Shown here: piece by piece, positions 50,510 through 54,933 of the stretch
Layout of the letters: each line of letters begins with the position of its first letter
Numbering within the stretch: the first letter of the stretch is position 1
Origin: Pseudomonas sp. KBW05
Lineage (GTDB): Bacteria; Pseudomonadota; Gammaproteobacteria; Pseudomonadales; Pseudomonadaceae
Length of the DNA: 64,000 nt
Direction: 5' to 3'
Assembly (NCBI RefSeq): GCF_003852405.1
Contig: NZ_QAJM01000009.1
Location: 124,001-188,000, forward strand
The notes under the pieces: model-generated
What the model was told of the DNA's origin: nothing
What the model saw: only the letters and a program-made list of their open reading frames with translations
Database searches by the model: none
Made by a program: the position numbers and the translations under genes

Positions 50510-51211
50510 ATGCTGCAATTCGAAAACGTTTCCACTTTCTACGGCAAGATCCAGGCCCTGCACAGCGTCAACGTGGAAGTGCGTCAAGGCGAGATCGTCA
50601 CGCTGATCGGCGCCAACGGCGCGGGCAAATCCACCTTGCTGATGACCCTGTGCGGTTCGCCCCAGGCCCACAGCGGCAGCATCCGCTACATGGGTGAGGA
50701 ACTGGTGGGCCTGCAATCGTCGCAGATCATGCGCAAGAGCATTGCCGTGGTGCCGGAAGGTCGTCGGGTGTTTTCCCGCCTGACCGTGGAAGAGAACCTC
50801 GCCATGGGTGGGTTCTTTACCGACAAGGGCGACTTCCAGGAGCAAATGGACAAGGTGCTGCACCTTTTCCCACGGCTCAAGGAGCGCTTCAGCCAGCGCG
50901 GCGGCACCATGTCTGGCGGCGAGCAGCAAATGCTCGCCATCGGCCGCGCGCTGATGAGCAAACCCAAGCTGCTGCTGCTGGACGAACCGTCCCTGGGGCT
51001 GGCGCCGATCATCATCCAGCAGATCTTCGACATCATCGAACAGCTGCGCAAGGACGGTGTGACGGTGTTCCTGGTGGAGCAGAACGCCAACCAGGCCCTG
51101 AAAATCGCCGACCGTGCCTATGTGCTGGAAAACGGCCGAGTGGTGATGGAAGGCTCGGGTGAGCAATTGCTGACGGATCCGAAGGTGCGTGAGGCGTACC
51201 TGGGCGGTTAA
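50510..51211 (+). CDS. braG: Branched-chain amino acid ABC ATPase (LivF type)
   Basis: A 233-residue cytoplasmic ATPase with Walker A GANGAGKST, signature MSGGEQQMLAIGRAL and Walker B LLLDEPSLGLAP. Forms the ATPase pair with BraF. Last gene of the operon; a REPIN follows instead of a T-run terminator. Confidence 0.96.
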   Translation: MLQFENVSTFYGKIQALHSVNVEVRQGEIVTLIGANGAGKSTLLMTLCGSPQAHSGSIRYMGEELVGLQSSQIMRKSIAVVPEGRRVFSRLTVEENLAMGGFFTDKGDFQEQMDKVLHLFPRLKERFSQRGGTMSGGEQQMLAIGRALMSKPKLLLLDEPSLGLAPIIIQQIFDIIEQLRKDGVTVFLVEQNANQALKIADRAYVLENGRVVMEGSGEQLLTDPKVREAYLGG

Positions 51212-51243
51212 CCACCGGTTGCTGAATGAACCGGGTCAAAAAA

Positions 51244-51332
51244 TGTGGGAGCGGGCTTGCTCGCGAATGCGGTGGATCAGCTAAGTATCTGTTGGCTGAC
51301 ACTTCGCATTCGCGAGCAAGCCCGCTCCCACA
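51244..51332. repeat. REPIN (inverted REP pair)
   Basis: TGTGGGAGCGGGCTTGCTCG at 51244 and its complement ending at 51332, about 41 bases apart, between braG and the bufferin-type operon. Confidence 0.9.
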
Positions 51333-51388
51333 TTTGCTTTGTGTGATGCTCAAACTGTTGTGCATCCTGAATTAATTTTCGGCGGGCG

Positions 51389-51417
51389 TGTAACGGATTC
51401 CGCCCAACTGCCTCTAG
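51389..51417 (+). promoter_or_regulatory. Candidate ECF-sigma promoter of the bufferin-type operon
   Basis: TGTAACGG at 51389 and CTCTAG at 51412, about 15 bases apart. This resembles GTAAC-type -35 boxes of extracytoplasmic-function sigma factors; bufferin operons elsewhere are reported under such a factor (SigF in Caulobacter). No sigma-70 promoter is evident in this gap. It is 55-85 bases before the first gene. Weak evidence. Confidence 0.35.
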
Positions 51418-51471
51418 TGGTACAAGCAGGCACTCAAGCCCGCCAATTCAACCCACTGCTGGAGATCCACC

Positions 51472-51768
51472 ATGACCACCAAACTGTCCGCTGCCACCCT
51501 CGTCCTGGCCCTCGGTTCCGCCCTGAGCCTGTCCGCCCTGACCTCCACCGCCCACGCGGCCGATGACATGCAGAAATGCTTCGGCGTCGCTGAAGCCGGC
51601 AAGAACGATTGCGCCGCGGGCGCCGGCACATCCTGCGCAGGCACGTCGAAAACCAAAGACCAGGCCAACGCCTGGAAACTGGTCCCGGCCGGCACCTGCA
51701 CCCAAACCCCAAGCTCCACCTCGCCGACCGGTTTCGGCCAGGAAGCCGCCTTCACCGCCAAGTCCTGA
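51472..51768 (+). CDS. bufA1: DUF2282 bufferin-like RiPP precursor (BufA1 type)
   Basis: A 98-residue small secreted protein. The signal peptide (about 1-29) ends STAHA before ADDMQKCFG. The mature part has four Cys: Cys36 ([12 protein letters not shown]), Cys47 (NDCAAG), Cys55 (TSCAGTS) and Cys76 (PAGTC). This is the DUF2282 pattern of bufferins, in which an MNIO enzyme turns the two central Cys into 5-thiooxazoles and the product binds copper. CTGGAGATCC is the ribosome site. First of four genes in a tight operon with DUF692, DUF2063 and DoxX. The modification here is inferred from family and context. Confidence 0.85.
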
Positions 51769-51791
51769 AACCCTGCGCCGCCTGAGTACTG

Positions 51792-52670
51792 ATGATGACC
51801 CTTTCATCCTTGCCAGCCGTCTCCCAGGCTCAGGCGCCCGGCCTGCCGCGCCGGGCCGGGCTGGGGCTGAAGCACGAGCACTTCGCCGAAGTGCTCGAGA
51901 CCGCCCCCGACATCGGCTTTTTTGAAGTGCACGCCGAAAACTACATGGTCGCCGGCGGGCCGTTTCACCACTACCTGGGATTGATCCGCGAGCAGTACCC
52001 GCTGTCATTGCACGGCGTGGGCCTGTCCATCGGCGGCGAAGGCCCGCTGGACCGTGAGCACCTGGCACGGCTGGCCACGCTGATCGAGCGATATCAACCT
52101 CACTCCTTTTCCGAACACCTGGCCTGGTCAAGCCACGGCCCGGTGTTTCTCAACGACCTGCTGCCCCTCGCCTACGATGCCGCCACCCTCAAGCGCGTCT
52201 GCGAACACGTGGATCAGGTGCAAAGCACGCTCAAGCGGCCAATGCTGCTGGAGAATCCGTCAACCTACCTGCAATTCCAGCGTTCGACCCTGGACGAGAC
52301 GGACTTCATCAGCGAAGTCATCCGCCGCACCGGCTGTGGCTTGCTGCTGGACGTGAACAACGTCTACGTGTCGTGTATCAATCATCAACGCGACCCACTG
52401 GCCTACATCGACGCACTGCCGTTGCACGCTGTCGGTGAGATTCATCTGGCCGGGTTTGCCGAAGACACTGACAACCTTGGCGACCGCCTGCTGATCGACG
52501 ACCACGGCGCGCCCATCGATAACGCCGTGTGGCGCCTGTACGAAACCGTACTGGCACGCATCGGCCCGGTGGCCACGCTGATCGAACGGGATAACCAGGT
52601 GCCGGACTTCAGCGTCCTTCACGCTGAAGCTCGACAAGCCGACTGGCACTTGTCGCAGGTGCTCTCATGA
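51792..52670 (+). CDS. bufB: DUF692 multinuclear iron oxidative enzyme (MNIO, BufB type)
   Basis: A 292-residue TIM-barrel enzyme of the DUF692 (MNIO) family. Metal-ligand motifs of the family are visible in order: [67 protein letters not shown] and LIERDNQVP. With a di- or tri-iron centre and O2 such enzymes oxidise Cys in peptide substrates. The start is uncertain by one codon (ATG ATG). It overlaps the DUF2063 gene by four bases; these two proteins are expected to form a complex. Confidence 0.9.
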
Positions 52671-53443
52671 GCCTCTATGACATGTTTGCCAGCGCCCTGC
52701 TGGCGCCTGACCTGCCCTGTCCCGAGGGTCTGTTCAGCAGCAACGGTGCCGACCCGGCCAGCCGGTTTGCGGTGTACCGCAACAACGTACATAGCTCGTT
52801 GATCAACGCGTTGGCTGCGGCACACCCAGTGACCTTGCAACTGGTGGGCGACGCATTCTTTCGTGCCATGGCCGGCCTCTATGTACAGGCCAGTCCGCCG
52901 ACCAGCCCGCTGATCAGTGAATACGGCGACTCATTTGCCGCGTTCATCCGCGGCTTCGAACCCGCTGCCAGCGTGCCGTACCTGGCCGATGTCGCACAGC
53001 TCGAACGCCTGCGCGTACGGGCTTATCACGCCGCGGATACGCCGGGCCTGGAGCAGCATGCCGTCCTCCAGTACCTGCAAAACCAGGCAGACCTGGGGAC
53101 ATTGCGCCTACACCTGCACCCGTCCCTCGCCACGCTGGACAGCGCGTATGCCGTGGTTGCCGTGTGGGCCGCGCACCAGACCGAAGGCGCCCTGGCCACC
53201 TTGAACCCCTGGCACCCACAGAGTGCGCTGGTGTTGCGCCACGGCCTGGGCGTCAAGGTGTTCGCCATCGACAGCGGCACCGTGGCGTTTATCAACAGCC
53301 TGAACCACGGTTCACCGCTGCAACGGGCCGTCGCTCATGCCCTTGAGACGTCGACCGAGTTCGACTTGCACAAATGCCTGTCGCTGCTGGTCAGTCACGA
53401 GGCCATCACCCATCTGCACCTGGAACAAAAGGTATCGCCATGA
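52667..53443 (+). CDS. bufC: DUF2063 partner protein (BufC type)
   Basis: A 258-residue protein starting [14 protein letters not shown] with an N-terminal DUF2063 helical domain ([65 protein letters not shown]). The C-terminal half is a smaller mixed domain. In MNIO systems this subunit is thought to recognise the precursor and present it to the enzyme. Overlaps bufB and the DoxX gene by four bases each. Confidence 0.88.
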
Positions 53444-53925
53444 ACACAGCCCCCACCTGCCTGATAAAACGGGCAATCGCGCTTTTAGAGAAAATCCCCT
53501 ACAGCCTGATCGCCTTTCTCGCACGCTTCTCCATCGCGGCAGTGTTCTGGAAGTCGGGGCAAACCAAGGTCGAAGGTTTTGTCGTTGACCTGATCAGCGG
53601 CACCTTCCAACTGGGCGAACCGCGCCTCGCCGCCTCGACATTGCCGTTGTTTCGCAGTGAATATCACGTGCCATTGCTGTCGCCGGAGGTGGCCGCGCAC
53701 ATGGCGGCGTTTGCCGAGCACTTCTTCCCGGTGTTGATCCTGGTGGGCTTTGCCACACGCTTTTCGGCCCTGGCGCTGATCGGCATGACCCTGGTCATTC
53801 AGTTGTTCGTCTACCCGGATGCTTACCCGACCCACGGCACCTGGCTGGCCATACTGTTACTGCTGACAGCCAAGGGCCCGGGGCGCCTGTCCATCGACCA
53901 CCTGATCGCCCGACGCTACGGCTAA
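53440..53925 (+). CDS. DoxX-family membrane protein of the bufferin operon
   Basis: A 161-residue inner-membrane protein with four hydrophobic segments (IAFLARFSIAAVFWKSGQTKVEG, then FFPVLILVGFATRF, ALALIGMTLVIQLFVY, and WLAILLLLTAKG). DoxX members occur with MNIO operons and are suggested to act in redox reactions of thiols or quinones. ATG at 53440 overlaps the bufC stop (ATGA); an upstream frame opening is inside bufC. Its end is four bases from the convergent LysR gene (overlap). Confidence 0.86.
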   Translation: MNTAPTCLIKRAIALLEKIPYSLIAFLARFSIAAVFWKSGQTKVEGFVVDLISGTFQLGEPRLAASTLPLFRSEYHVPLLSPEVAAHMAAFAEHFFPVLILVGFATRFSALALIGMTLVIQLFVYPDAYPTHGTWLAILLLLTAKGPGRLSIDHLIARRYG

Positions 53926-54830
53926 AGACGGTCCAGGGCCTCGCCGCTGCGCTTGAACCAGTCCACCAGATAATCGGCCAGCACTTGGGTGCGACGGGGC
54001 AGACCGCCTTGATAAGGGTGTACCAGGTACATTGGCATGCTCCGTGTCTGATAATCCCGCAGGAGCCAACGCAAGCGTCCGTCGGCCAATTCCGCCGGTA
54101 GTACGTAGGATGGCAGACGGGCAATACCGGCCCCCACCAAGGCGGCCTTCTTCAGCAGGTTGTAGTGGTTGGACGCGAAGGTGCCGCTGACCCGCACCCG
54201 CAACAATTCATGTTGCTGGTGGTAAAGCCACTCTTCGCGGCCGCTGTAATGACTGTTGAGCAGGCAGGTATGGGCAGCCAAGTCCGCCGGCGTCTGCGGT
54301 TCGCCATGCTGTTCCAGGTAAGCCGGGCTGGCGCAGGTCATCTCCTGCCAGGCCAGCAGCGGCTTGGCGACCAGGCGCTCGTTTTCAATCGCGCCCGAGC
54401 GCACCCCCAAATCAAAGCCATCCCGTGCCAGGTCGCGGTAGCTGTTGTTCAGCTCCAACTCGATCTGGACCTGCGGGTATTGCTTGGAAAACTCCAGCAA
54501 TAAGCCATCAAAGAAGGTTTCGCCCAGCGACACCGGAACTGTCATACGTACCGGCCCGGCCAAATCGTCTTTCAGCCGAGCCAATGCCTGACGGGCGCGA
54601 TCAACCTGCACCACCAGCGCCTGCGCCTGGGGCAACAGCGCCGCACCGGCAGCAGTAAGGCTCAGCTTGCGCGTGGTGCGATGCAGCAACACCACCGAGA
54701 ACTGCGCCTCCAACTGGCTGATGCGCTTGGACAACTGCCCCTTGCTGCAACCCAATTGCTCGGCTGCCACGGTGAAACTGCCCGCTTCGATCAGCACGGC
54801 AAAGGCCGCCAGGTCATCCATCTCGCTCAT
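53922..54830 (-). CDS. LysR-family regulator
   Basis: A 302-residue LysR regulator with helix-turn-helix DLAAFAVLIEAGSFTVAAEQLGCSKGQLSKRISQLE and a CrgA-like effector domain (GPVRMTVPVSLGETFFDGLL, ELNNSYRDLARDGFDLGVRSG). The ATG at 54830 is preferred to upstream in-frame codons as it gives the usual family N-terminus. It is divergent from the SDR gene at 54934 with 103 bases between, the classical layout for a LysR regulator and its target. Confidence 0.88.
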   Translation of the reverse strand: MSEMDDLAAFAVLIEAGSFTVAAEQLGCSKGQLSKRISQLEAQFSVVLLHRTTRKLSLTAAGAALLPQAQALVVQVDRARQALARLKDDLAGPVRMTVPVSLGETFFDGLLLEFSKQYPQVQIELELNNSYRDLARDGFDLGVRSGAIENERLVAKPLLAWQEMTCASPAYLEQHGEPQTPADLAAHTCLLNSHYSGREEWLYHQQHELLRVRVSGTFASNHYNLLKKAALVGAGIARLPSYVLPAELADGRLRWLLRDYQTRSMPMYLVHPYQGGLPRRTQVLADYLVDWFKRSGEALDRL

Positions 54831-54933
54831 GGATTGTTTCCAATAGAAAACCAAAGGTTGCCTATTAGCACGTTTATCCATGAAAAAAGCCACTCTAGAC
54901 TGAAACCTCACTTACCCCTGGAGGAACAGCCCC

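Follow-up and report, generated by a model that had tools for sequence, protein, structure and literature searches.

We propose a model for a four-gene operon of Pseudomonas sp. KBW05 and for the promoter-like element TGTAAC-N17-CTCTAG in front of it, both of which lie in the 64,000-nucleotide stretch analysed here (contig NZ_QAJM01000009.1, positions 124,001 to 188,000 of the forward strand; hereafter the window). We consider it probable that the operon encodes a Buf1-type thiooxazole system that buffers a metal, most likely Cu(I), under an extracytoplasmic function (ECF)-type promoter common to the Buf1 and Buf2 operons of the genome as one small regulon. BufA would be made with a Sec signal peptide, and in the cytoplasm BufB, to which BufC would present the substrate, would oxidise Cys47 and Cys55, the central pair of cysteines, to 5-thiooxazoles. 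Once exported, the peptide would form a disulfide between Cys36 and Cys76 and bind excess metal in the periplasm, with DoxX helping at the inner membrane, perhaps through quinone redox chemistry. Transcription would proceed from TGTAAC-N17-CTCTAG, which would also drive the Buf2 operon, and the responsible sigma factor would be encoded elsewhere and differ from the SigF-NrsF pair that lies close to certain other Buf1 operons in Pseudomonas. The element, together with a related signal peptide, would in three genomes now serve a Met-rich, Cys-free peptide that has no adjoining enzymes.

The operon alone is not new, because a cluster of the same composition has been published as "Pep1" in a 2021 pan-genome paper on the P. 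fluorescens group (PMC8719888). What looks new is the presence of the same element before Buf1, Buf2 and Met-rich genes in Pseudomonas, and no report of a shared bufferin promoter in this genus was found in the titles or abstract openings of the open-licence literature. Bufferins are a large and recently recognised class of modified peptides whose inducers outside the SigF-NrsF cases are little known. Through the element, standard genetics could reach the sigma factor and the signal it answers; the element would also join the two bufferin families in a single response, and it can reveal members without a recognisable domain, as with the Met-rich peptides. The locus comprises the following features.

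51389-51417, + strand: ECF-type promoter-like element TGTAAC-N17-CTCTAG (TGTAAC at 51389-51394, CTCTAG at 51412-51417), ending 54 nucleotides before bufA
51472-51768, + strand: bufA, DUF2282 precursor of 98 residues with Cys at 36, 47, 55 and 76 (PF10048, 76.3 bits, cut-off 22.4)
51472-51558, + strand: putative Sec signal peptide of BufA, 29 residues ending in AHA, with a hydrophobic N-terminus, judged by eye
51792-52670, + strand: bufB, MNIO (DUF692) maturase of 292 residues (NF050167 MNIO_BufB, 391.6 bits, cut-off 310)
52667-53443, + strand: bufC, DUF2063 partner of 258 residues (PF09836, 86.4 bits, cut-off 27.2; NF050145 HvfC, 39.1, below 142)
53440-53925, + strand: doxX, DoxX-family membrane protein of 161 residues from the ATG at 53440 (PF07681, 56.2 bits, cut-off 23.6; NF050144 HvfX, 42.6, below 80)

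The element TGTAAC-N17-CTCTAG and its presumed sigma factor

The element begins at the very base at which the original prediction, made from the letters of the window, opened its region (51389, the first base of TGTAAC); neither the element nor the second bufferin operon of the genome, which lies outside the window, was mentioned there. The search for relatives of the operon matched 447 stretches, 426 of which were confirmed as encoding a relative, and the best 80 of these 426, all titled Pseudomonas, form with the window a set of 81 sequences. Alignment of the 200 nucleotides upstream of bufA in this set gave two blocks conserved to at least 90% around a more variable interior, and in close relatives the conservation also runs on 3′ of the second block over part of the stretch. 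TGTAAC-N17-CTCTAG is exact in 69 of the 81 and carries one mismatch in the other 12, always with a spacer of 17 under a scoring that allowed 16 to 18, and when each sequence was shuffled once as a control, the closest match carried four or five mismatches in 64 of 81 cases and never under two. Two conserved blocks, a fixed spacing of 16-17 nucleotides and a position tens of nucleotides before the start codon, all displayed by the element, are features of ECF promoters.

In the home genome the exact form TGTAAC-N17-CTCTA marks two sites, one before the window operon and the other before a BufA2 peptide on contig C8. This C8 peptide is a secreted Cys peptide that scores 95 bits against BufA2 (NF050166, cut-off 60) and matches no Pfam family, DUF2282 included, whereas the window peptide reaches 20.8 bits against the same model, under the cut-off, and belongs to another precursor family. 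The C8 operon shares with the window operon the element, the secreted Cys peptide, an MNIO and a DUF2063 protein, has these enzymes as its own (the BufB-family MNIO scores 380 against a cut-off of 310), and is the sole other MNIO locus found in the home genome; no match to the window DoxX was obtained in the 19-kb stretch around it. Since the element stands before both operons, Buf1 and Buf2 would form one small regulon. A gene for a heavy-metal P-type ATPase immediately precedes the BufA2 operon in the same orientation (locus L280, contig C8:355000-374000, 10472-12358, minus strand), and the C8 element begins 14 nucleotides after its stop codon. On the 3′ side the C8 operon is followed by a cyclopropane-synthase-type methyltransferase gene and a phospholipase-D-type gene.

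Across the genus, the longer pattern TGTAAC-N17-CTCTAGTG occurs 94 times, in 64 of 200 Pseudomonas genomes, against 3 for the reversed control, and every one of the 94 precedes a small secreted peptide (41 Buf1, 50 Buf2 and 3 Met-rich and Cys-free). The 92 matches outside the home genome were classed by their best downstream precursor and MNIO match, which assigned 40 to Buf1, 49 to Buf2, 3 to loci without an MNIO and none elsewhere; a downstream DUF2063 match accompanies 89 of the 92. By content, 30 genomes have both kinds, 20 only Buf2, 11 only Buf1 and 3 the Met-rich peptide. The end of the pattern lies 51-65 nucleotides before the precursor start in Buf1 and 49-65 in Buf2 (61 at the bufA2 start codon of C8), a distance that fits the expectation for a promoter. 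In one genome (G135) the Buf1 element and the BufA2 precursor are about 4 kb apart (C1:656174 and 660144), making the two operons neighbours. Outside Pseudomonas, 378 genomes of the order yielded 3 matches to the longer pattern and 11 to the reversed control, and as matches beyond the genus are at chance level we claim the exact element for Pseudomonas only.

The Caulobacter Buf1 operon CC3254-CC3257, controlled by sigma-F/NrsF, resembles that of the window in its order of precursor, MNIO, DUF2063 protein and DoxX (PMC3511200, PMC12452194). The sigma-F promoter GTAACC-N16-CGAA, which stands before the DUF2282 operons of Caulobacter, agrees with the window element in its -35-like GTAAC and in the 16-17 nucleotide spacing, whereas its second block reads CGAA in place of CTCTAG (PMC3511200). 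Unlike in Caulobacter, sigF and nrsF are missing near the window operon, NrsF (PF06532) has no match in the home genome, and the window-type element also precedes a Buf2 operon. A sigma factor gene adjoining the operon, the arrangement of Caulobacter, had been expected, but searches for sigF and nrsF in the best 80 related loci and the window slice gave no match.

The SigF-NrsF pair does occur at other Buf1 loci of the genus, as seen in 40 hand-picked stretches, a choice that favoured genomes without the motif and took in one Met-rich locus (L206), such that the counts are not genus frequencies. SigF-NrsF lies no more than about 6 kb from the precursor at 15 of the 39 Buf1 loci, and at L179 and L183 sigF and nrsF adjoin the precursor (NrsF profile, 234 and 224 bits). 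The element is found at none of these 15, all of which have an MNIO of at most 50% identity to that of the window; at one mismatch or fewer it is present in 10 of the 39, every one of which has an MNIO with 65% identity or more and lacks nrsF. Neither the element nor SigF-NrsF is present at 7 of 17 close and 7 of 22 distant loci. We infer that the sigma factor acting on the element is an ECF factor distinct from SigF-NrsF. SigX was considered as a candidate, and the accessible part of a P. aeruginosa sigma-regulon paper (PMC4362757) yielded no motif for it; two RskA-paired ECF factors inspected in the same search gave nothing for or against. At the C-terminus of BufA (residues 77-98) close relatives mostly have SPTGFGQxxxF-type tails and the SigF-linked precursors TPxGxGxL-type tails.

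The operon and its encoded proteins

The assignment to the Buf1-type bufferins is supported by homology, because the four proteins pass their Pfam cut-offs, the enzyme passes that of BufB, and the gene order bufA-bufB-bufC is the published one. The original prediction had called the operon bufferin-type on the strength of a DUF2282 precursor with four Cys, a DUF692 enzyme, a DUF2063 partner and a DoxX protein, and each of these identities was borne out (the Pfam match of BufB being MbnB_TglH_ChrH, 356 bits, cut-off 25). Its description of four genes in a row, the last three overlapping by four bases, likewise agrees with the open reading frames, in which bufB and bufC overlap at 52667-52670, bufC and doxX at 53440-53443, and bufA is separated from bufB by 23 nucleotides.

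In published bufferin clusters the core consists of the precursor, MNIO, DUF2063 protein and DoxX, and in Buf1 the central cysteines are modified and the outer two form a disulfide, with copper buffering as the function (PMC12452194). In Buf1 clusters doxX is common but not obligatory, and a linked SigF-NrsF pair occurs in some. Each Cys converted to a 5-thiooxazole loses 4 H (PMC12668002), so that the figure of 4 H for a thiooxazole pair in the original prediction has to be revised, and two rings with one disulfide would amount to 10 H. Mature BufA, taken from residue 30 and unmodified, has a calculated monoisotopic mass of 6829.1. The MNIO aligns with the solved structure 3BWW over residues 18-279; in the same comparison with solved structures the DUF2063 partner, DoxX and the precursor had no match.

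The HvfABCX oxazolin system and other captophorins share with the window operon an MNIO, a partner of the RiPP recognition element type (RiPP, ribosomally synthesised and post-translationally modified peptide), a DoxX-like protein and the 5-thiooxazole chemistry proposed here (PMC12668002, PMC13419390), whereas EGKCG repeats are absent from the window precursor and the equivalog cut-offs of HvfB (238.6 of 360), HvfC and HvfX are missed. The methanobactin equivalog MbnB (TIGR04159) is likewise far off at 44 bits of 325. The GIG operons of Cupriavidus and Legionella have, by description, the same four families; that of Legionella answers gold and copper, and RpoS has been suggested in GIG regulation, unlike our reading of the window (PMC5413113).

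The operon is no chance assembly. All four genes were found by tblastn in the same order in 80 of the best 80 relatives, the DUF2063 match being partial in L036, and the four Cys are present in 120 of 120 precursors, comprising the 81 of the window and its relatives and a further 39 Buf1 precursors of the genus. In an even draw, 122 of 200 Pseudomonas genomes have a DUF2282 match. The soil strain P. fluorescens FW300-N2E3 (L073) is among the carriers of the operon. The operon is flanked upstream by livF (50510-51211) and downstream by a convergent LysR gene (53922-54911), whose 3′ end overlaps that of doxX by four bases (53922-53925). The LysR gene was matched in all 80 relatives (partially in L056), the SDR gene next to it in 79 and livF in 72; five of the eight without livF are stretches cut short (L011, L022, L025, L040 and L054) and the other three are exceptions (L029, L062 and L082). 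Between livF and the element lies an inverted repeat (51241-51335) with 44-nucleotide arms, 89% complementary, and a 7-nucleotide loop, which we take to resemble a repetitive extragenic palindromic (REP) element.

An alignment of DoxX over 39 diverse sequences has 30 invariant columns, among them Arg29, Glu74, Tyr75, Glu93, His94, Arg107, His132, Trp135 and Asp153. No Cys is invariant among the 39, which speaks against thiol exchange through a Cys of DoxX itself, and the pattern of conserved residues would favour a bound cofactor, metal or quinone. The original prediction regarded what DoxX does, which metal is involved and which stress induces the operon as not established for this genus, in agreement with the literature in its accessible parts.

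Met-rich peptides in the bufA slot

In three genomes (G007, G089 and G096; loci L157, L240 and L245) the slot between livF and the LysR gene likewise carries the element, here followed by a Met-rich peptide of 82-86 residues. The peptide has a putative signal peptide, judged by eye, and its mature part contains 13-14 Met, 15-16 Lys and 16-17 acidic residues and no Cys. DUF2282 and BufA2 have no match in these genomes, and MNIO, DUF2063 and DoxX have none in the three stretches of 3.0 to 12 kb around the peptide. Among 299 genomes only these three have full-length relatives of the peptide. Five weaker matches cover its signal peptide only (residues 3-34), and in all five the element lies about 100 nucleotides before the match; three of the five, read in frame, are the start of a BufA precursor. 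Window BufA in turn matches two of the three Met-rich peptides at residues 1-34 (E 3e-5 and 0.008). Two of the peptides were scanned against Pfam and one against NCBIfam, with no match in either, and the family name penta-MxKDx, considered at first for the peptide, was dropped on that account.

Judged from the sequences, the Met-rich gene has probably kept the bufA promoter and signal peptide and had its mature part changed, once, and the replacement would have run from bufA to the Met-rich gene. That an unrelated gene came into the slot by chance, and is uninformative as to the role of the operon, seems unlikely to us; the missing family matches and the restriction of full-length relatives to three of 299 genomes, possibly through one event, would suit such a gene, but the shared slot, the element at a similar distance and the matches to BufA signal peptides point to descent from bufA. 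Met-rich periplasmic peptides usually bind Cu(I), and this favours copper as the metal. Furthermore, the Met-rich occupant is consistent with a need for a metal sink in the periplasm, not for the thiooxazole chemistry as such.

We extend the model only tentatively, at somewhat less than an even chance, to a dedicated Pseudomonas regulon under ECF control, which would be read from TGTAAC-N17-CTCTAG and comprise metal-sink peptides of the periplasm, the chemistry of one member being exchangeable for that of another. In most carriers the members would be the Buf1 and Buf2 thiooxazole RiPPs, and in three genomes, perhaps of one lineage, an unmodified Met-rich peptide would have arisen in the bufA slot, keeping the bufA promoter and signal peptide, with loss of the mature part, the MNIO, its partner and DoxX. 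Providing this natural swap is real, the trait under selection would be metal (copper) sequestration itself, and the argument for copper would be independent of peptide chemistry.

Counter-evidence and rival explanations

Several observations weigh against a copper-buffering system under a promoter shared by Buf1 and Buf2. Coverage is incomplete: of 65 BufA2 loci with 61% identity or more, 50 have the exact element and 15 do not, and 7 of the 17 fetched Buf1 loci with an MNIO of at least 65% identity are without it at one mismatch or fewer. The short form TGTAAC-N17-CTCTA is not enriched in the home genome, where its two matches are equalled by two of the reversed pattern; because the control gives the same number, this count is uninformative and the positions carry the information. 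A profile search of the four proteins against the bufferin families, suggested in the original prediction, gave scores above the four Pfam cut-offs and that of BufB and below those of HvfC (39.1 of 142) and HvfX (42.6 of 80). The Met-rich replacement may be a single event. When 51 home-genome stretches, most of them around PF08281 matches and together covering only part of the 62 such matches in the genome, were scanned with position weights, no autoregulated ECF gene came to light, and apart from the site in the window only the BufA2 site on C8 scored. The P-type ATPase encoded ahead of the BufA2 operon scores 483.5 with the cadmium family, above the cut-off of 313.5, and 350.2 with the copper family, below the cut-off of 397. 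In the literature, the Microbulbifer operon for an MNIO RiPP went undetected under copper (PMC12538549), the DUF692 cluster of P. aeruginosa, a RiPP iModulon, responds to hypochlorite (NaOCl) and N-acetylglucosamine (GlcNAc) (PMC9023270), and the correlation of Pep1 and Pep2 with inhibition of Streptomyces scabies is unexplained by a role in copper buffering (PMC8719888).

It is conceivable, and in our estimation unlikely, that the operon serves a stress other than copper, such as hypochlorite and other oxidants, gold or cadmium, with the modified peptide acting as a thiol sink or as a binder of another soft metal and copper binding being incidental. The Met-rich, Cys-free peptides stand against this, as 13-14 Met fit Cu(I) best in view of what is generally known of Met-rich copper sites. 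The response of the P. aeruginosa cluster to NaOCl and GlcNAc, the cadmium-type score of the ATPase and the induction of the Caulobacter operon by chromate (PMC3511200) would accord with another stress, but bufferins and the related captophorins bind copper (PMC12452194, PMC12668002).

The alternative that TGTAAC-N17-CTCTAG serves as an operator, bound by a repressor or an activator, or belongs to an RNA leader element appears to us quite unlikely. The extension of conservation 3′ of the second block in close relatives would be compatible with it, as would the outcome of the home-genome scans, in which the cognate sigma factor was not found. An ECF-type promoter, however, better fits the short blocks with a variable interior and a spacer fixed at 17 nucleotides in 81 of 81 sequences, the position 49-65 nucleotides before the start codon, and the likeness of the first block and spacing to Caulobacter sigma-F elements (PMC3511200), and the blocks form neither a palindrome nor a direct repeat. 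A scan of the whole home genome at two mismatches gave 5 matches against 18 in the reversed control, and as a consequence we claim no further targets.

Finally, that the product is a secreted, bacteriocin-like antimicrobial peptide, as antiSMASH labels it, is very improbable: Pep1 is the strongest and Pep2 also a strong correlate of S. scabies inhibition, and with the C8 operon looking like Pep2 the two correlated clusters would be the two with the element, but this is correlation only, for which the authors ask for further work (PMC8719888), no exporter or immunity family has a match among the four operon genes in Pfam or NCBIfam, and the Cys pattern is fixed and all four genes are kept in 80 of 80 close relatives.

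The model of a metal-buffering Buf1 and Buf2 regulon can be set beside the clusters of the same pan-genome paper. Pep1 comes from the same genus and has the same content (DUF2282 peptide, DUF692, DUF2063 and DoxX), with no compositional difference seen from the window operon, and its description in the accessible text is without a promoter element or chemistry (PMC8719888). Pep2, which comprises a peptide, DUF692, DUF2063, a methyltransferase and a cardiolipin synthase, resembles the C8 operon; its peptide is there called DUF2282, whereas that of C8 matches BufA2 and not DUF2282 (PMC8719888). In a third arrangement, at loci L201, L205 and L217, which resembles Pep4 (PMC8719888), doxX comes after the gene for a DUF2282 precursor and the MNIO gene lies some 2 kb away from the latter. 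Near this arrangement, in genomes G044, G006 and G017, lies a weakly BufA2-like peptide of 41-43% identity.

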